Below, piece by piece: positions 11,485 through 20,789 of a stretch of DNA of 20,789 bases. The position numbers were made by a program, and so were the translations under genes. Origin of the DNA: a virus; IMG/VR virus record IMGVR_UViG_3300042890_001611, positions 1-20,789 of that record; one strand, written 5' to 3'. Each line of letters begins with the position of its first letter. Within the stretch, counting starts at the first letter, position 1. The notes under the pieces were generated by a model. That model had not been told where the DNA came from and did no database searches. It was given only the letters and a program-made list of their open reading frames with translations.

Positions 11485-13818
11485 TTATCCGTTAAATGCT
11501 GCACCAGTTGGTAAGATGTTGAAATCAATTTGAATGAATTCAGCGGTCTTAGTTGGTTGTAAGTAGATAGCACCTTTAAGGATGTTTCTATCAATTACAT
11601 CTGGAGTATTATTTGAATCATCCATTACAACACGGAATGCGTACAAACCTTGTCTTTGTTGGATTGATTCTAAATAAGGGTTAGCAATATTTAAGAATCT
11701 ATTTCTTGTCTCTGCGGTGTTTTGTTCAAATACTAAGTATCTTGAAGTAGATGCGATGTATTTTCTTACAGTTAATAATAATCTTCTTACATTAATTCTG
11801 TCTAATGCAGATGGTTTATCTTGTAATGTCTTTTGACCGAATACTACAATACCTTGTCCTGGGAATTGTACGATTGGGTTTACTTTGTTTTCGTATAAAT
11901 CATCTTTTTCAGATTGTGTTAATCTATCTAATACACTAACTGCTCCAATCAATCCACCTCTATTCAATCCTGCTGGTGCGAACCATTCTGCTGCTACTCT
12001 ATCGTTTGCTGCGAATACGCCAGGTAACAATACTGATGGTGGAACTGTGATAAGTTTGTTTGTGTTTACATCGATTGTTTTAATCCAAGGATAATAAACA
12101 GCCGCCATATTTGAATCTACTGCTTGTGCTTGTGTTATAGTTGCTGGTATCTTTGTATCTGCATTACCTGCATCTCCAATAAAGAATGCGTCGTTTCTTT
12201 GTTCAACCATATCTAAAATTGAAGTAAATACAGATGAGTGGTCTGCTCTATTAACGTGAGGTGCTACTACCATATTGATATCATATTCGTCAGCGTTAGA
12301 TAAAGCTGCGATGTGTTTTCCGTATGCTAATTTACCTGCAGTTGTTGCTGGTTCAATATCTGATGCGTTTGTGTTTGGTGCAAATCCGTCAAAACCTTCT
12401 TGGAATGCTACTACAAATTGTCTTTTTGCAACATCTGCTGATGTTTGTGTTAATGGATTTAATGTTAATCCACAAATAGTATCTAATGAGAATACATCGT
12501 TAGCTCCGTTTCCTGCACTTACAGGAATTGGTTTCATATAAATTTTGTTATCTGCATTGTTGTCTAAATCAATACCACTATACTTTGTAGAGTCTACTAC
12601 TGAGCCTGTTGAGAATGTTACTCTTGGAATTAAACTAGCGTATGATGTTGCTAGGTCAGGGCTTACCGCTCTCACAGGTAATTGATATGCAGCGTGTCCG
12701 AAAGGTACTGCTTGTACGGGAGCTTGTTCGTTTAAATACGAAATTCTAATATATTTTGAATTATTCACCCAATCACCACTTTCAGTTATTTTACCATCTG
12801 ATGCTATACTTCTTTTTCTATCACCAATTACTCTACTAATAAAGTTTGGAGAGTTAGGGTCTAAGTTTACATTTGAATAAGTTTCTAATACTGTCTTTTT
12901 CTTATCGGTATCGTTGAAATCTCTTACTACAACCGTAAATGTACCATAATCAGTTCCGTTTGTTGTACCTGCTGCTTTAACATTTGTAATACCAATTTTT
13001 ATTTTAGTATTTGCTATGTTTCCTGCGGTAATTGTTTCAACTTGGAATAAAGAATATCTATCACCTGAAATTAATTGAGATTTAATGATTGGAGTTAATG
13101 CCTCACACGCTTCACCATTTTGTGCAGAACCACTAAATTTTTGGTCTACTAATACAACTGCACTTGCACTTAAAGGAGTAAGTGTACCTAATGAACCTGT
13201 GAATGCACCTGTATCAATTCCGTTTGAAGTTGATAATGTATAAGAACCTATATTAGCTACAAATCCGTTTTCTTTGAAAAAAGCGTATGAGTAAGCTCTT
13301 TTTGTACCATATGCAGATGTGCCAAATACTGATTCAATATCATTATCATCCGATAATTCTAAAGATGCACTATATCCAGTTGGAGCTATTCCACTACCAC
13401 TTAATGCTATTGAAAAATCACCACTAGCATCTCTATCAGAAACCGTTGTTCCTGTGAAACCAATTGCACTTCCTGATGTATTAAATAAGATACCCAATGC
13501 ACCTGTATATGAACCGGTTGCTGCTATTAATAATAAAGGAGCGGCTTCGGTATAACCTGTTTTTCCGGCTACTCTACAAATAGTTGCAGTTCCTGCTTCT
13601 CTTAAATAATTTTGTACTGCTAAAGGAGTATAATATGTGTCATCTACTACTCCAAAAAGAGTTTCAAATTCAGCTTGTGAATTTACAATTGTTGGTACTA
13701 ATGGGCCTTCTTTGAAAGGGCCGATGAATGCTGCACCTATTTCAGCCACACCTTGTTGTAAAAATGAAAGGTCGTTTTCTTTTGTAAATACGCCTGGTGA
13801 TACTATCTTTTCTGCCAT
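11485..13818 (-). CDS. gp18: Contractile tail sheath protein (gp18-like)
   Basis: The 777-residue protein starts with VSPGVFTKENDLSF (6-19), the typical sheath N-terminus, followed by AAFIGPFKEGPLVPTIVNS and a YYTPLAVQNYLREAG segment. The C-terminal third has the conserved sheath core: INVRRLLLTVRKYI, LESIQQRQGLYAFRVVMDD and a final FIQIDFNILPTGAAFNG. The middle (roughly 130-400) is Ser/Thr/Gly-rich and probably forms the surface-exposed insertion domain that varies between phages. It is longer than T4 gp18 (659 residues). It polymerises around the tube and contracts to drive infection. The direct pairing with the tail tube gene is the standard arrangement. The A/T-rich leader carries the late motif 36 bases upstream and no SD. 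Confidence 0.95.
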   Translation of the reverse strand: MAEKIVSPGVFTKENDLSFLQQGVAEIGAAFIGPFKEGPLVPTIVNSQAEFETLFGVVDDTYYTPLAVQNYLREAGTATICRVAGKTGYTEAAPLLLIAATGSYTGALGILFNTSGSAIGFTGTTVSDRDASGDFSIALSGSGIAPTGYSASLELSDDNDIESVFGTSAYGTKRAYSYAFFKENGFVANIGSYTLSTSNGIDTGAFTGSLGTLTPLSASAVVLVDQKFSGSAQNGEACEALTPIIKSQLISGDRYSLFQVETITAGNIANTKIKIGITNVKAAGTTNGTDYGTFTVVVRDFNDTDKKKTVLETYSNVNLDPNSPNFISRVIGDRKRSIASDGKITESGDWVNNSKYIRISYLNEQAPVQAVPFGHAAYQLPVRAVSPDLATSYASLIPRVTFSTGSVVDSTKYSGIDLDNNADNKIYMKPIPVSAGNGANDVFSLDTICGLTLNPLTQTSADVAKRQFVVAFQEGFDGFAPNTNASDIEPATTAGKLAYGKHIAALSNADEYDINMVVAPHVNRADHSSVFTSILDMVEQRNDAFFIGDAGNADTKIPATITQAQAVDSNMAAVYYPWIKTIDVNTNKLITVPPSVLLPGVFAANDRVAAEWFAPAGLNRGGLIGAVSVLDRLTQSEKDDLYENKVNPIVQFPGQGIVVFGQKTLQDKPSALDRINVRRLLLTVRKYIASTSRYLVFEQNTAETRNRFLNIANPYLESIQQRQGLYAFRVVMDDSNNTPDVIDRNILKGAIYLQPTKTAEFIQIDFNILPTGAAFNG

Positions 13819-13889: not shown

Positions 13890-15608
13890 TTATTTGTATG
13901 TTGGAGAGAAATAATCGTATACTTGTCCTACTGATGCTTGTAATTGTAATGTGTTGTAGAATAATACAGGTCCAATTTGTCCGTTCCAGAATGTTGTTCT
14001 TGCACTATTACTACCAATTGTTAAAAAGTTTGTAGATGAAGGTGCCGTAAATGCTGATGCGGTAAATGTTCCTACTGATGTTTTATCTACATAAACTGTT
14101 ACAGTTCCTGATGGTTGGAATGTTGCTGAAATCATATACCAAACATTTACTGATAATGAAGTTGTCAATTGTGCACTATTTCCTAATGCACTACCATAGA
14201 ATTTTACTCTATTTAAAGTAGAACTATCTGATGATTCAATTGCTAAACCATAAAAACCCGCGTAGTCAAAAATGTGTCTTGATGCTACACCCAATGTTGT
14301 AGTTGGTCTAATCCACATATGAATTGTACCGGTATTAGTATTGAATTGAGAAATACCACCATTAATATTTGTTGTAGTATCTTTATACCAGAATTGATTT
14401 GTACCATTTCCAGTCCAATATTTTTCTTTTTTACTTGCTCCATTATTATAAGATGGGTTACCACCACTTATACTTGCTGCGTTTGTTACACCTGCAGGTC
14501 TTACACCTGTATTATATCCTGCTAAATCTAACCAGTCTGCTGTTGCTGTACCATCTGTTGATGATGCTTTTCCTGGGTCAACATACATTCTTAATCCTGA
14601 AGATGGGATATATGGTTGAGTTGTTGTACCTTTGTTATGTGAAATTAAACCATTTGATAAGAATACATCGGCGTTTTCTACATTCAACGTTACAATTTCA
14701 ACATCTGCAGTTACTACTTCTATATTTGTTATTTCAATTTCACTTTCATCTTGCATAATAAGTTTGTCTCCAGGTAAAATTTCACCTACATTTTTAAACT
14801 TATATTTACCAATCTCATTATCATAAACATATAATGGGTGAGTTTCAGTTGCATTTATTAAACCATTATTTAAAGAAAAATATCCTTCTGCGAAATTAAA
14901 TGTTATATCTCTAACTACTACGTTTTTGGAATCACCTGATAATGTGTTTGACAAATAAAATCTCCATTCAACTTGGTCACTATCTAATGGTTGAGATTCA
15001 TCTGGTAATCCAGTTGGTTCCCATGCTTTGATTTCATCACCAACATTTAAATCTTCAATATTTACTTCATTTCCGTTTGCTAAAGTTACTTTAGTACCAA
15101 ACAATAAACAGAAATCAGGTTGGTTAATTGTATTATAAACATCTACTGCGTATAATGTTTTTGTAGTTGTAGTATTATAATTTGTTGCTGCTGTATTATA
15201 TCCATCGGCATACTTCATAGATAATATCGATGATGCTTCCGAATAATTTGATGCGTTAATTGCTGCGGGTGTGATTGGAAACGATGGAGATGCTCCTAAT
15301 GTTGGAGAACCTACTGAAAAGTTTGCGTTATCAAAGGTCACAGAATAGTTTGCTGCTACACTTCCAACTCTAGTTCCATGTAAAGAACCGGCTGAACCAA
15401 ATGAAAAAGTTGCATTTTCTGATGTGCTTTCTACTATGTATGTAAAAGTTGGTTGATTTATTGTTATAGAATCAACTGCGAATTCTAACATTGATGCTGC
15501 AGTTCCTGCTGATGCGTTTCTTGCATTTAAAGACGAAGCTTGTGTAGTTCTTTCCGAACCCACTGTTGCTCTATATAAATTACCTAACGATAAATTTGTT
15601 CTTGCCAT
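13890..15608 (-). CDS. Adhesin-like virion protein with Hint (intein-like) and LamG-like domains
   Basis: The 572-residue protein has three parts. Residues 1-166 are Ser/Ala/Thr/Asn-rich and beta-like, probably for virion attachment. Residues 167-325 are a Hint domain: block A starts with C167 (CLLFGTKVTLANGNEV), then IEDLNVGDEI (184-193), block B NATETHPLYV (252-261) with T254 and H257, and a C-terminal block VEIVTLNVENADVFLSNG ending LISHN with H324-N325. The next residue is Lys (K326), not Cys/Ser/Thr, so normal protein splicing is not expected. Residues 335-572 resemble a LamG/concanavalin-like carbohydrate-binding domain (LRMYVDPG, GTIHMWIRP, NVWYMISATFQPSGTVTVYVD, WNGQIGPVLFYN). There is no room for a homing endonuclease. 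Location between fibre and sheath genes suggests a tail or head adhesin that self-cleaves or cross-links. Domain calls are firm; the role is inferred. Confidence 0.8.
   Translation of the reverse strand: MARTNLSLGNLYRATVGSERTTQASSLNARNASAGTAASMLEFAVDSITINQPTFTYIVESTSENATFSFGSAGSLHGTRVGSVAANYSVTFDNANFSVGSPTLGASPSFPITPAAINASNYSEASSILSMKYADGYNTAATNYNTTTTKTLYAVDVYNTINQPDFCLLFGTKVTLANGNEVNIEDLNVGDEIKAWEPTGLPDESQPLDSDQVEWRFYLSNTLSGDSKNVVVRDITFNFAEGYFSLNNGLINATETHPLYVYDNEIGKYKFKNVGEILPGDKLIMQDESEIEITNIEVVTADVEIVTLNVENADVFLSNGLISHNKGTTTQPYIPSSGLRMYVDPGKASSTDGTATADWLDLAGYNTGVRPAGVTNAASISGGNPSYNNGASKKEKYWTGNGTNQFWYKDTTTNINGGISQFNTNTGTIHMWIRPTTTLGVASRHIFDYAGFYGLAIESSDSSTLNRVKFYGSALGNSAQLTTSLSVNVWYMISATFQPSGTVTVYVDKTSVGTFTASAFTAPSSTNFLTIGSNSARTTFWNGQIGPVLFYNTLQLQASVGQVYDYFSPTYK
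14634..15110 (-). other. Hint / bacterial-intein-like domain coding segment
   Basis: This in-frame segment encodes residues 167-325 of the adhesin, from the presumed nucleophile Cys to the terminal His-Asn. At 159 residues it is mini-intein sized. Lys at +1 places it nearer to BIL-type or Hedgehog-type Hint domains than to splicing inteins. Confidence 0.75.
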
Positions 15609-15619
15609 AGTATAAAGTG

Positions 15620-16618
15620 TTATTCTCCGTTATAAATATCTAAAAGTTTATCTTTCCATTCATCTTTATTGGAAAAGTTTTTAATCATCCAATTTTTAAG
15701 TTTTTCAAACTCTACTTTACGGGTTTCGTAATCATCCTGACAAATTGTTTCGTAGGTTTTTTTAAATGTTTCCTCATCAATCGCTTTGTACTTATAGTCA
15801 AGTGGAACATGCCATGTTTCATGTAATATTGGTAATTTACCCCAATCGACTGCTTCAAATATTCCATATCCAAATGGTTCATATTGAAAGCAAGAATGAG
15901 ATATTCCCCAATCAAGTCCATAGAACCTTTCTTTATATTTGTAATCAAACTTGTAAATTTTTGCTTTTTCAAATTTGTATCCATATTTCTTTTTATAATA
16001 TTTGTTGAATGTTTCTGAATTAGTAGAAATGAATCCACCTAACCCATCCATGTATTCAACATTTTTTCTACCTTCAACTCTTGCTGCATATCCTAATTCT
16101 ACTGATGTTGAAAGTTCTTTATTTTGTGTGAATGTATAATTATTTGGAATATGATGTAAATTTTCCGTTTCATATGGAAAATGATACAATCCTACCCAAA
16201 CTTTATTTTTAATTTTATCAATTAATTCGTTTTCATATTCCCAATTTCCGTACCAATGTAGATATTCTTCTTTTCCCATCTGTGCCATTAAAGACACTTT
16301 GGTTAAATTGTGAAAAATTATTGAATCAATCTTTTCTAAATTTTGATGAACTGCTTTGGTTGGGGTGTAATGTCCATGTAATATATGTATGCGTCTTGCA
16401 CCTTCAAAGATTTCAATAATTTTATCTTCGTTGGTTTCCCAAACATGGTCAATATCAATTGGAAATTCTTCGTAATTTATAGGTTTGTGTCTATGGAAAA
16501 TAAGAAGTGGCTTAACTTCTAAGTTAGGAGCCACTTCTTTTATCCAATTAGTTACCCATATATCAGCACCGCTATTGAACCAGGGTCCTCCAGCGGTGGT
16601 GTAATATACATCATACAT
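15620..16618 (-). CDS. GT-B fold glycosyltransferase (GT4-like)
   Basis: The 332-residue protein has a GT-B-like layout. The N-terminal domain contains GGPWFNSGADIWV (10-22), a typical acceptor-side glycine-rich loop, and HILHGHY (78-84). The C-terminal domain contains LGYAARVEGRKNVEYMDGL (175-193), matching the 'R---rKg' donor region, and EPFGYGIFEAVDWGKLPI (247-264), an E-x7-E motif (E247, E255) that binds the nucleotide sugar in GT4-type retaining enzymes. No membrane segment is seen. It starts 3 bases after the stop of the S74 tail fibre gene, so the two are probably co-expressed and the fibre or neighbouring adhesin is a candidate acceptor. Host glycans or DNA are alternatives. The leader motif of the next gene lies inside its last codons. 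Confidence 0.85.
   Translation of the reverse strand: MYDVYYTTAGGPWFNSGADIWVTNWIKEVAPNLEVKPLLIFHRHKPINYEEFPIDIDHVWETNEDKIIEIFEGARRIHILHGHYTPTKAVHQNLEKIDSIIFHNLTKVSLMAQMGKEEYLHWYGNWEYENELIDKIKNKVWVGLYHFPYETENLHHIPNNYTFTQNKELSTSVELGYAARVEGRKNVEYMDGLGGFISTNSETFNKYYKKKYGYKFEKAKIYKFDYKYKERFYGLDWGISHSCFQYEPFGYGIFEAVDWGKLPILHETWHVPLDYKYKAIDEETFKKTYETICQDDYETRKVEFEKLKNWMIKNFSNKDEWKDKLLDIYNGE
15631..15639 (-). promoter_or_regulatory. Late-type leader motif ATATTTATA inside the glycosyltransferase 3' end
   Basis: Exact coding-strand copy (GATATTTATAACGGAG) 23 bases before the ATG of the Hint-LamG gene. It overlaps the last codons of the glycosyltransferase, so the motif is kept even where it must also encode protein. 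Confidence 0.55.
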
Positions 16619-16621
16619 TTA

Positions 16622-18190
16622 TTATAAACCTTTTGATTCTTTTAACTTTTCGATTTCGATTGTTAAAGAATGAATTTGTGTTTGTTGTTCTTTGATACCT
16701 TCAATTAATAATGCTACTAATTTATCGTATTTAACTGCTTTGAAACCACTTTCTCTTGTTTGAACTAATTGAGGTAATACTGCTTCAATTTCTTGTGCGA
16801 TTACACCCACATCGTTTCCTTCGTATCCGTGCTCAGCTTTGTTTTCAGCTTTCCAATCATAAGTGTTACCACTAATTTTAGAAATCTTATCCAATGCGTT
16901 TTCGATTGGAGTAATGTTTTCTTTGAAACGAATATCTGAAGATGAGAATGCTACAACATCATTTGATGCGTCAATTCTACCTGCAGTTGCTGATGCTGCC
17001 ATTCCAACTCCTAATGAATTGAATTGAACATTTGAAGATGTTGCTACTGCTTGACCGATTGCGATTGATGGGGTTGCATTTTCACCACTATTGTTAGAAA
17101 GAGTTACACCTGTTCCTGCTACTAAACTTGCAACATAATCACCTGTTGTTTGTGTTGCTAATGCAATGTTTCCACTAGCAGAACCTAAACTTACTTGAGA
17201 TGAGCCACTTACTATTCCTGCTGGGATAGATGAGATACTTGCGTATGTAATTTGAGATGAACCACTTACTATACCCGATGGGATAGATGAGATACTTGCG
17301 TATGTAATTTGAGATGAACCACTTACTATACCCGATGGGATAGATGAGATACTTGTGTATGTAATTTGAGATGAACCACTTACTGTACCCGTTGGTAAGT
17401 TTGCGATTGTTTGTGCTGAACCCGAAACTACACCCGTTGGTAAATTTGCAATTGTTTGTGCAGAACTTGAAACGATTCCTGTTGATAAAGTTAATCCGTT
17501 TATAGCTCCAGTAGTAGTAATAGAACCAGTTATTACTAAATCATTTCCAAATACTATATTAGTTCCACCTGAACTTAAAAATTTAGATGTACCATCTTGC
17601 ATGCTAACATTTCCTTTAACGGAAATTAAACCAGCGGTTGGGTCTAATAATATATCACCACCACCAGAAGATTTTAATTCAATATCTCCGTCTACAGTTT
17701 GTAATATAATATTATCAGTACCTAATTCATTAAATTTAATTGATTGACCAGTATCGGTTGTAAATATTAATTCTGTTGCGTTTGATGAAAGTACTTGAGT
17801 TCCATCAATGTATAATGATGCAGATGATAAATATAAGTCTCTCCATTGTTTACTAGGAGAACCTAAATCAAATACACTATCTAATGAAGGAATAAGTGAT
17901 GAACTTAAAGATGCAACTACATTAACTGTGTCAGATGTGTTATCTCCTATTGTTAATTTACCACCTAATGTTAAATTACCTGCAACGTTTGCATTTCCGG
18001 TAATGTCTAATCCAGAACCTGAAATTGCTCCGAAATTTCCGGTACTTCCTGTACCTGCTGATGATAATACGATGTCGCCTGTTGCTCCACCGACTACCAA
18101 TGTTCCCAATGTGGTGTTCACATATGGTTCTCCGAATGCTAATGAACCGGATTGTTGTGCGGTACTACCGCGTCTAAATTTAAGTCCCAT
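16622..18190 (-). CDS. Tail fibre with C-terminal S74 intramolecular chaperone
   Basis: The 522-residue protein begins GLKFRRGSTAQQSG (2-15), an N-terminal motif common to phage fibres. It continues through beta-structured, Gly/Ser-rich repeats including VFDLGSPSKQWRDLYLSSA (about 106-124), a frequent fibre module. Residues about 226-335 are tandem repeats of 15 and then 19 residues (SGSSQITYASISSIPSGIV). The C-terminus from S418 is a peptidase S74 intramolecular chaperone domain (SDIRFKENITPIENALDKI, DVGVIAQEIEAVLPQLV, KAVKYDKLVALLIEGIKEQQ) ending in a coiled coil; this domain trimerises and usually cuts itself off before the Ser of SDxRxK. It is presumably a host-recognition fibre. The glycosyltransferase follows 3 bases later. 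The leader is 51 bases from motif to ATG and contains a small hairpin. Confidence 0.85.
   Translation of the reverse strand: MGLKFRRGSTAQQSGSLAFGEPYVNTTLGTLVVGGATGDIVLSSAGTGSTGNFGAISGSGLDITGNANVAGNLTLGGKLTIGDNTSDTVNVVASLSSSLIPSLDSVFDLGSPSKQWRDLYLSSASLYIDGTQVLSSNATELIFTTDTGQSIKFNELGTDNIILQTVDGDIELKSSGGGDILLDPTAGLISVKGNVSMQDGTSKFLSSGGTNIVFGNDLVITGSITTTGAINGLTLSTGIVSSSAQTIANLPTGVVSGSAQTIANLPTGTVSGSSQITYTSISSIPSGIVSGSSQITYASISSIPSGIVSGSSQITYASISSIPAGIVSGSSQVSLGSASGNIALATQTTGDYVASLVAGTGVTLSNNSGENATPSIAIGQAVATSSNVQFNSLGVGMAASATAGRIDASNDVVAFSSSDIRFKENITPIENALDKISKISGNTYDWKAENKAEHGYEGNDVGVIAQEIEAVLPQLVQTRESGFKAVKYDKLVALLIEGIKEQQTQIHSLTIEIEKLKESKGL
17196..17385 (-). repeat. 57-bp tandem repeats in the tail fibre gene
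   Basis: Units begin at 17196, 17253 and 17310, with a partial fourth from 17367. The units at 17253 and 17310 differ at a single base; the unit at 17196 is more diverged. Each encodes a 19-residue SGSSQITY-SISSIP-GIV repeat. The near identity at DNA level, including third positions, points to recent duplication. Confidence 0.9.
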
Positions 18191-18767: not shown

Positions 18768-19988
18768 CTATCTATTATAAATCCAATTTTCACAATAGTT
18801 TATTTCTTTAATAGATTTTAGATTATCTATTATTTTTGTATCAACCAATTCAGGATGTACCCACCAATCTTCATATGGATTATTGTTATTTGGTGAAATA
18901 TTTGATACAACCAATTCATATCCAAAAGATTTAAGATATTTTCTACTTTTATCTCTCACATCGTCAAATTCTCTTGTATAAAAATCATGTTCAAATGTTA
19001 TAACTCTAAACTTATTTTTCCAAAAAGGAATAGATAGTAAAACATTATAAGATGTGTTTGCAGGGTCTATATCTATTTGTAAATAATCTATTATATCATT
19101 ATTTTTTAATAAATCCAATTCTTCCCAATTGATTTTAGTAGCATCATTTATTATTGGAATTGTATTTCTAATTAACCAATTTTCTTTTTGTCTATTATCA
19201 ATATCTACACTAACACCATTCCATCCAAATTCTTCTAATAATTTTGTATTATTTCCATATATTGGGTCTGCACATCCTATCTCTAACCATTTTCCTAATT
19301 TTTTACCATTCAAAACCATTAACACAAACAAATCCTGAAATGATTGTGAATAGTTTCCAACCATCGTTTCTGCTCCTTCAAATTTAAATCTTAAATTTTT
19401 ATAATTTTCTAAAGTATATTTAATCGGTTCACTCCAATTATTACCCAATCTATTTAAATTATCAATTGCTGCATTCTTAAATTTTTCAGATATATTTTTA
19501 GAAATTTTAATTTCTCTCATTATTTGTAAACTTTCTTGAAATAATCCTATCCACCAAGCAGTTACCCCTCGTTGAAAATCAAATGTTTCTATTCCATCAT
19601 ATTCTAAATAAGTTATAGAATCTGGTAAATCAGTTGATAAACTTTTTCCAATCATCGAATGTGTATATCCCTCCTGCCAATCTCTATTTCTTTCATATGC
19701 TCTACACAATAGAAAATGTGCTTCAGGTCTGTTGGGTAATAAACTGATTGCTCTTAATAAAAGTCCTTTAATCATGAACCACCTATTACCTTGCTTTTCA
19801 AAACACAATGCAATTCTACACAATGATTCGTATTGCAATTTTACATCAAACCCAAATTCTATTGACCTTACATAAAATCCAGCCGCAGATGCCGTTTGTC
19901 CTATGTTTTCATATTCCAATCCTAATCGGAAACAAATATTACTATCTTTTGGATTATTTATATATTCTTTTAATAACTTATTTAACAT
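18768..19988 (-). CDS. TPR domain plus FkbM-type SAM methyltransferase
   Basis: The 406-residue protein has a helical N-terminal part (about 1-120) of TPR-like repeats: FRLGLEYENIGQTASAAGFYVRSIE (20-44) and a second around AHFLLCRAYERNRDWQEGY (90-108). The C-terminal part (about 208-380) is an FkbM-like class I methyltransferase: NYSQSFQDLFVL (212-223), the SAM-binding motif KWLEIGCADP (233-242), TKLLEEFGWNGVSVDID (248-264), and DYLQIDIDP (301-309). Such enzymes O-methylate sugars or small hydroxyl groups and recur beside glycosyltransferases in phage and surface-polysaccharide loci; TPR parts can hold the acceptor. The start overlaps the radical SAM stop by one base (TAATG), giving translational coupling. 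Acceptor unknown; virion or host glycan is a reasonable guess. Confidence 0.85.
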   Translation of the reverse strand: MLNKLLKEYINNPKDSNICFRLGLEYENIGQTASAAGFYVRSIEFGFDVKLQYESLCRIALCFEKQGNRWFMIKGLLLRAISLLPNRPEAHFLLCRAYERNRDWQEGYTHSMIGKSLSTDLPDSITYLEYDGIETFDFQRGVTAWWIGLFQESLQIMREIKISKNISEKFKNAAIDNLNRLGNNWSEPIKYTLENYKNLRFKFEGAETMVGNYSQSFQDLFVLMVLNGKKLGKWLEIGCADPIYGNNTKLLEEFGWNGVSVDIDNRQKENWLIRNTIPIINDATKINWEELDLLKNNDIIDYLQIDIDPANTSYNVLLSIPFWKNKFRVITFEHDFYTREFDDVRDKSRKYLKSFGYELVVSNISPNNNNPYEDWWVHPELVDTKIIDNLKSIKEINYCENWIYNR

Positions 19989-20789
19989 TAATTTAATTTT
20001 TTTGGTTCAATTCCATTTTCACAATGTGAACACAAATTAAAGCATGAAAATGGTACCGGTATTATATCATCATATTCTTGTTCAAATAGATTTCCCAATA
20101 TTTGTTCCAAACCATAATCCATACAACACAAACTTACTCTACCATCCGGTAATAAAACATTATGATAAAGTGTTTCAATACAATTGCATGTCATATTTTT
20201 ATCACCATGTTCCATATGATTAAACCTATCTTTTATTTTTTCCAATTCAGGTTTAATAATTGCTTCTCCTAAAAGATTTCCAGCTCTACTCCAAAATGTA
20301 GGAACATGTGCAGTTGGATATATGTGTCTTACACTATTATGAATTTCATTTCCCATACTCATTACATAAAATCCTTTGATTTCGTTTTCTATTGATTTAA
20401 TGTATTCAATCGTTTCTATGTATTTTGGTGTTATTGGATGTTTTGCAATTCGTTCTTCATCAGGTAAGTGTAAGCAAAATCCACTATTTGGGCCATTATC
20501 AAAATCAATATGTTTAATTTTTTTTATATCCTCAATAGTTAAACCAACTCCAGTTGTAAATACTGATATTTTATGTCCTTTACTATGTGCATACAAAATC
20601 ATATCCGATGTTTTTTTATTTAGAAATGGTTCTGTGAATCCACTAAATGTAATTCTAATTTGTTTAGGAAGTTTATCTATTACTTTTACAAAATTTTCAT
20701 ATGTAAGTGTTTTTACACTATCATATTTTTGCATTAATAATCTTTGAGGACAAAATGCACAATCCACTACACATCCTTTTGGTGGAATT
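19988..20789 (-). CDS. Radical SAM protein with SPASM-like C-terminus, 5' end outside the window
   Basis: The frame runs open to the window edge. The GTG at 20767 is not the real start, because the first cysteine of the radical SAM motif lies upstream of it: GCVVDCAFCP is the CxxxCxxC cluster that binds the 4Fe-4S/SAM centre. Counting from that GTG, SGFTEP (42-47) corresponds to the SAM-binding GGEP motif. C194, C196, C214, C215, C242, C246 and C249, with LLPDGRVSLCCMDYG (205-219), give a SPASM-like auxiliary cluster region. SPASM proteins commonly modify peptides or act on small molecules; some sit with sugar-modifying genes. At least 266 residues are present. It is coupled to the FkbM-type gene (one-base overlap), so both likely serve one modification pathway. 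The substrate cannot be told from sequence. Confidence 0.85.
   Translation of the reverse strand, partial: IPPKGCVVDCAFCPQRLLMQKYDSVKTLTYENFVKVIDKLPKQIRITFSGFTEPFLNKKTSDMILYAHSKGHKISVFTTGVGLTIEDIKKIKHIDFDNGPNSGFCLHLPDEERIAKHPITPKYIETIEYIKSIENEIKGFYVMSMGNEIHNSVRHIYPTAHVPTFWSRAGNLLGEAIIKPELEKIKDRFNHMEHGDKNMTCNCIETLYHNVLLPDGRVSLCCMDYGLEQILGNLFEQEYDDIIPVPFSCFNLCSHCENGIEPKKLN

Follow-up and report, generated by a model that had tools for sequence, protein, structure and literature searches.

A stretch of viral DNA of 20,789 nucleotides (the window; positions 1 to 20,789 of IMG/VR record IMGVR_UViG_3300042890_001611) was found to encode a predicted phage tail adhesin in which residues 167-325, as judged from family profiles and a structural model, are a HINT domain whose nearest solved relatives are A-type BIL domains. 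An unusual, invariant lysine at the joint between this domain and a tip of sugar-binding-like type suggests that the virus may rebuild the tail protein after its synthesis. The reading preferred here, to which sequence, modelling and analogy lend a likelihood somewhat short of even, is that the protein is a precursor with BIL-type self-processing, in which Lys326 would accept the acyl group from Cys167, the anchor and tip would be joined, and the Hint would be lost.

The gene lies on the minus strand at the coordinates given by a first-pass annotation of the window (13890-15608, a range in which the plus strand is interrupted by many stops), and the codons of the residues singled out by that annotation (C167, T254 and H257, H324-N325, and the Lys at +1) were located where it had placed them. 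The features of the gene are as follows.

13890..15608, minus strand: gene for the 572-residue precursor, in the order N-domain, Hint, Lys-Gly, LamG (from the ORF list; full-length model, mean pLDDT 84.6)
15111..15608, minus strand: N-domain, residues 1-166, putative virion anchor, retained together with the Hint whichever C-domain follows
14634..15110, minus strand: BIL-type Hint domain, residues 167-325, assigned from structure and profile matches
15108..15110, minus strand: Cys167 (A:1), predicted nucleophile of the N-S acyl shift, also invariant in the A3/A4 alignments
14838..14849, minus strand: block B, T254-x-x-H257, with the His invariant and the Thr in at least 90%
14667..14669, minus strand: Asp314 at block F position 13, usually His in inteins and BILs
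14634..14639, minus strand: His324-Asn325, predicted site of Asn cyclisation
14628..14633, minus strand: Lys326-Gly327 (+1 and +2), with the K326 codon at 14631-14633
13914..14603, minus strand: LamG/ConA-like display domain, residues 336-565

The LamG-like nature of the C-terminal domain, also proposed in the first-pass annotation, was borne out by a Pfam Laminin_G_3 match at residues 420-554 (E 1.4e-14) and by the resemblance of this part of the model to AbnA domain 4 (Z 21.7, rmsd 2.6). The earlier description of the N-domain as Ser/Thr-rich holds only in a mild form, with these two residues forming 27% of residues 1-166 versus 22% of the protein overall. Cys167 is the sole Cys of the 572 residues.

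Single-sequence searches of Pfam, NCBIfam, PHROGs and the PDB returned no significant Hint match, and the Hint families of Pfam appeared only marginally (Intein_splicing, E 0.048); the identity of the domain was settled by the family profile and the structural model, which, unlike those searches, gave clear matches. In a broader family alignment all 57 members were matched by Pfam Intein_splicing (best 9.6e-8) and 22 by PT-HINT, while a family profile searched against PDB sequences retrieved Tetrahymena BIL2 (6TMM/6Y75, 5e-6), then a Clostridium BIL (2LWY, 5.7e-5), and then inteins. An AlphaFold2 model of residues 152-345 (mean pLDDT 81.5, core >90) displayed the all-beta Hint horseshoe fold, and its best structural match was again BIL2 (6Y75; Z 19.0, rmsd 1.7 Å over 137 residues, 23% identity), followed by 2LWY (Z 18.5, rmsd 1.7), with inteins and Hedgehog domains slightly lower. 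Eighty-five PDB chains matched the model with Z of at least 8, and the best 50 listed consist entirely of inteins, BILs and Hedgehog domains; in the full-length model the N-domain is followed by the Hint and then the LamG domain, and the matches listed in its fold search are to LamG or Hint. The first-pass annotation had named a profile search against Hint, intein and BIL families and a structure prediction of residues 160-335 as checks on its claim of an intein-like domain within a phage adhesin; both upheld that claim, as did the invariance of the predicted catalytic residues described below. The self-processing that it proposed for the protein is plausible.

The domain carries the Cys at A:1 and the T-x-x-H of block B that, together with the fold, mark the HINT superfamily, and its assignment to the A-type BILs is supported by a His-Asn C-terminus without Cys, Ser or Thr at +1 and from its position in a non-conserved tail-locus protein with an exchangeable C-domain, rather than in an enzyme active site. 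Profile and structure scores place BIL2 and 2LWY best, with inteins close behind. A B-type BIL domain, which lacks a C-terminal His-Asn, was ruled out by the invariant His-Asn, and a Hedgehog (Hog) domain by the invariant Asn325 and the LamG or FN3-like domain behind it.

Relatives with 72-100% identity across the Hint region are encoded at 80 IMG/VR loci, and a family profile confirmed 286 candidate stretches. C167, T254, H257, H324, N325, K326, G327 and T328 are invariant in 81 of 81 homologues, while the codons of His324, Asn325 and Gly327 differ synonymously among them, which shows that the predicted catalytic residues are under purifying selection, far beyond chance. The initial Cys, the block B His, the HN and the Lys-Gly are unchanged down to approximately 30% identity, a degree of invariance that a structural spacer would not need; that the Hint is catalytically silent and retained in such a role, as its atypical block F might indicate, is thus considered very unlikely.

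Lys-Gly occupies +1 and +2 in 134 of 137 unique proteins with N-domain and Hint, that is, in all 134 with a genuine family junction; two of the three set aside have no junction (frame-broken or cut), and the third (L265), picked up by its position, is an intein unrelated to the family. Homologues were sampled both by a DNA scan keyed on HN-Lys-Gly and by a separate, independent scan keyed on the N-terminus of the tail sheath, and since every complete junction in the sheath-keyed sample is also HN-Lys-Gly, the invariance is not an artefact of the motif search. Among 397 loci no N-domain without a Hint was found, frame-broken fragments aside, which argues that the Hint is not an optional mobile intein. 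That the tail gene harbours an ordinary mobile intein, as the shared fold superfamily might suggest, is accordingly regarded as extremely improbable: there is no homing endonuclease, the insertion is not in a conserved enzyme site, the +1 residue is not Cys, Ser or Thr, and the host gene has no Hint-less allele among the loci searched. A canonical class 1 intein was rejected on the same lysine and the same 397 loci. A scan of prokaryote genomes with the family profile returned zero relatives, a scan with the Hint of LR756508 returned zero matches, and neither N-domain nor Hint was found near the sheath of two isolated relatives (as judged by sheath), Microcystis phage Mel-JY01 and Flavobacterium phage immuto.

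Hundreds of viral contigs carry homologues at this locus, which in the window is flanked by the following genes.

11485..13818, minus strand: gene immediately downstream, encoding the tail sheath protein (Pfam 5.5e-16; PHROG tail sheath 7.7e-70)
15620..16618, minus strand: 332-residue GT-B-like protein, directly upstream of the Hint adhesin across an 11-nt gap
16622..18190, minus strand: tail fibre with an S74 self-cleaving chaperone domain (Pfam Peptidase_S74 3.5e-18, Mtd_N 5.2e-6)

The adhesin gene thus lies between the 332-residue gene and the sheath gene, near the tail tube and S74 fibre genes, and the order is identical in a 245-kb genome. At this fixed locus the N-domain (about 165 residues) and Hint (about 160 residues) are kept and the C-terminal part varies among two LamG types, an FN3-like domain and a beta-rich domain of 108 residues; on the Hint tree these four classes need three changes, or two if both LamG types count as one. 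Because the Lys-Gly is invariant despite these changes, it belongs to the Hint module and not to the C-domain. From the sheath and tube gene neighbourhood and the interchange of C-domains, we infer that residues 1-166 act as a virion anchor.

In the preferred mechanism, (i) Cys167 would attack the F166-C167 bond, forming a thioester on residues 1-166; (ii) Asn325 would cyclise and free Lys326; (iii) an amine of Lys326 (the alpha amine, or the epsilon amine before cyclisation) would take the acyl group; and (iv) the Hint would depart, so that the N-domain and the exchangeable display domain end up linked, and some of the precursor would simply be cleaved as a by-product. The fold and active site match those of splicing-competent A-type BILs, which have no +1 nucleophile and in which, after formation of the Cys1 thioester and cyclisation of the Asn, the amine so released can ligate the flanks by attack on the thioester (PMC4031507). 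Tetrahymena BIL2, furthermore, is reported to form isopeptide bonds with lysine side chains, with different substrates (PMC8616854). Transfer to Lys326 is favoured on account of these two precedents and of the invariant lysine, which sits exactly at the position of the accepting side chain of inteins. Joining would also retain the particle's receptor-binding tip, and this would account for the tip domain that follows the Hint in every variant. The first-pass annotation had held that Hints without Cys, Ser or Thr at +1 cleave or attach a nucleophile; this statement was too narrow, as in A-type BILs aminolysis following Asn cyclisation can also lead to splicing (PMC4031507).

One argument against joining lies in block F, where position 13 is Asp in 111 of 113 distinct family junctions and His in two; His is found there in both 2LWY and BIL2 and is thought to assist Asn cyclisation (PMC4031507), so that the reaction at the C-terminal end might proceed slowly or not at all. 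The main rival reading is that the protein undergoes cleavage only, by hydrolysis of the thioester at C167, by Asn cyclisation at N325, or by both, with anchor and tip parting or staying non-covalently associated and with the lysine speeding cleavage or blocking splicing. This appears possible, if on the unlikely side: cleavage predominates in experimentally studied A-type BILs, a polarisable +1 residue may aid C-terminal scission (PMC4031507), and the tail module already contains a self-cleaving domain in the adjacent S74 fibre gene, but the receptor-binding domain would be released, the absolute invariance of Lys-Gly at the cut is hard to explain, and the Asp at F:13 would be expected, if anything, to weaken Asn cyclisation.

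Amines of other subunits in the virion, or of the host, might instead accept residues 1-166 from the C167 thioester, in the manner of Hedgehog or BIL2, making the Hint a conjugation or crosslinking device. The earlier suggestion that the anchor is joined to an amine does have a precedent in the lysine isopeptides made by BIL2 (PMC8616854), which is also the closest fold match and acts on different substrates, and in Lys+1 proteins that end at their Hint the N-side reaction is the only one that could matter. Transfer in trans nevertheless seems quite unlikely, as it leaves the invariant HN-Lys-Gly cis junction and the conserved tip unexplained, and the acceptor is not known.

The BIL2 of Tetrahymena thermophila BUBL1 (6Y75, 6TMM) shares the Cys1, the block B His and the His-Asn end without Cys, Ser or Thr at +1, but is a eukaryotic domain with Met at +1, a block F His and ubiquitin-like flanks, whereas the adhesin is a phage protein with Lys-Gly and a block F Asp; the joining of an acyl group to a lysine amine, reported for BIL2 (PMC8616854), is only proposed for the adhesin. 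The Hog domain of Hedgehog (1AT0; Z 17.6) has the same fold and forms a thioester at Cys1, but has no C-terminal Asn step, uses cholesterol as acceptor and belongs to animal signalling proteins. The S74 endosialidase-type intramolecular chaperone is likewise a self-processing-type domain of phage tail fibres, but its fold is unrelated, its chemistry is Ser/Lys, and it is C-terminal and released by one cut. The A-type BIL of Clostridium thermocellum (2LWY) shares the HN terminus and the lack of a +1 nucleophile, and differs in its block F His and its bacterial origin. Dassa et al. reportedly found, in 2004, Ala at the +1 position of the Clostridium thermocellum BIL. For A-type BILs of this kind, both splicing and cleavage are documented (cited in PMC4031507). 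A further comparison is with the 'intein domain' tail proteins found in phage NCTB and with the tail fibres of Alexandravirus (Erwinia/Dickeya), which also contain an HN-ending Hint in a phage tail protein, are in some cases annotated as virion structural, and have Asp at F:13 in the junctions read; unlike in the adhesin, their Hint lies at the extreme C-terminus with 3-10 residues after it, the +1 residue is Ala, Thr or Lys, and the N-domains are unrelated. The fibre of Dickeya phage AD1 is one that terminates in a Hint.

Lysine at +1 is not confined to this adhesin family, as judged from a scan for another Hint C-terminal motif, unconditioned on +1. Cys, Ser or Thr stood at +1 in 227 of 237 sites (viral: C80 S29 T6 K4 V1 R1; genomes: S71 C27 T14 K3 E1), and Lys accounted for seven of the other ten and was the commonest alternative, an excess with a probability of approximately 1e-6 to 1e-5 at 7-10% background Lys, on small numbers and with kinship ignored. 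This prevalence of Lys speaks for the preferred reading. It might be imagined that the side-chain amine of Lys+1 acts as a second nucleophile on the Cys167 thioester, giving an isopeptide (branched) joint between anchor and tip and possibly also between neighbouring fibre subunits, and that a distinct 'lysine' class of Hint building phage adhesins is common to the other viral and bacterial HN-Lys Hints; this broader proposal is rather unlikely. In some other Lys+1 Hints the chain stops at the Lys or shortly behind it, within one to four residues (HNK, HNKV or HNKH before the stop); joining cannot be the purpose in these, which counts against the preferred reading.

Several further architectures were observed among such proteins. 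Those at L247:3818-6121 and L258:3821-6595, and their relatives, contain three or four tandem Hints with internal junctions such as HN/CF, HN/KFC and HN/RAC, end in HN-K and a stop, and have an N-terminus that is ATP-grasp-like by eye; assignment of one tandem multi-Hint ORF (in G001) as a tail protein was dropped, as its surroundings give no support. In two bacterial contigs (L593 and L612), one or two Hints are followed by HN/KGG and Gly/Ser-rich tails.

Neither the Hint fold nor the organisation of A-type BILs is new, and 'intein domains' in phage tail proteins (the NCTB annotation) were already known, as was the chemistry family itself. What appears to be new, from comparison of the viral sequences, is the combination of anchor and Hint with exchanged C-domains and an invariant H-N-Lys-Gly at the same viral locus; a search of the open literature turned up no account either of tail proteins combining Hint and LamG or of Lys+1 Hints and their chemistry, though papers outside the searched literature are possible. 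If the domain is active, phages would have in it a self-contained means of splicing their adhesins together, with the interchangeable tip attached at a fixed Lys-Gly. The isopeptide reported for BIL2 raises the question whether lysine can act as acceptor at the junction of an intein; a natural, conserved Hint with Lys at +1 would offer a direct test of this and could, if active, yield a new tool for ligation.

The 332-residue gene, detected by its profile, adjoins the gene for N-domain and Hint on its upstream side in all 196 genuine loci with room for it, with the L265 intein as the sole exception, and was absent from every locus of the sheath sample that lacks a Hint. Among 50,697 phage records it has a single relative, located about 70 nt downstream of the Lys+1 Hint protein of LR756508. 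Most larger genomes carry a second copy, and both examined copies adjoin another adhesin without a Hint; the gene is therefore tied to adhesin modules, and not strictly to Hints. Profile searches of Pfam and the PDB gave nothing significant for the protein, and its motif EPFGYgIFEAvdwGKlPI (family form EPFGYxIFEAxDxGKLPI), which we take to be indicative of that fold class, suggests a GT-B glycosyltransferase.

In the neighbouring S74 fibre (16622-18190, minus strand), the Mtd_N domain (major tropism determinant, N-terminal) comes first, and the protein contains repeats of SGIVSGSSQITYASISSIP. Elsewhere on the minus strand of the window are genes for a PhyH-type dioxygenase (1790-2566; Pfam 1.5e-15) and, at the contig end, for a radical SAM/SPASM protein (19988-20767) that adjoins a TPR-methyltransferase-like ORF (18768-19988), together with an ORF of 423 residues (479-1750) that lies beside the baseplate genes and, on inspection by eye, looks like the polymerase portion of a DNA polymerase of family A.
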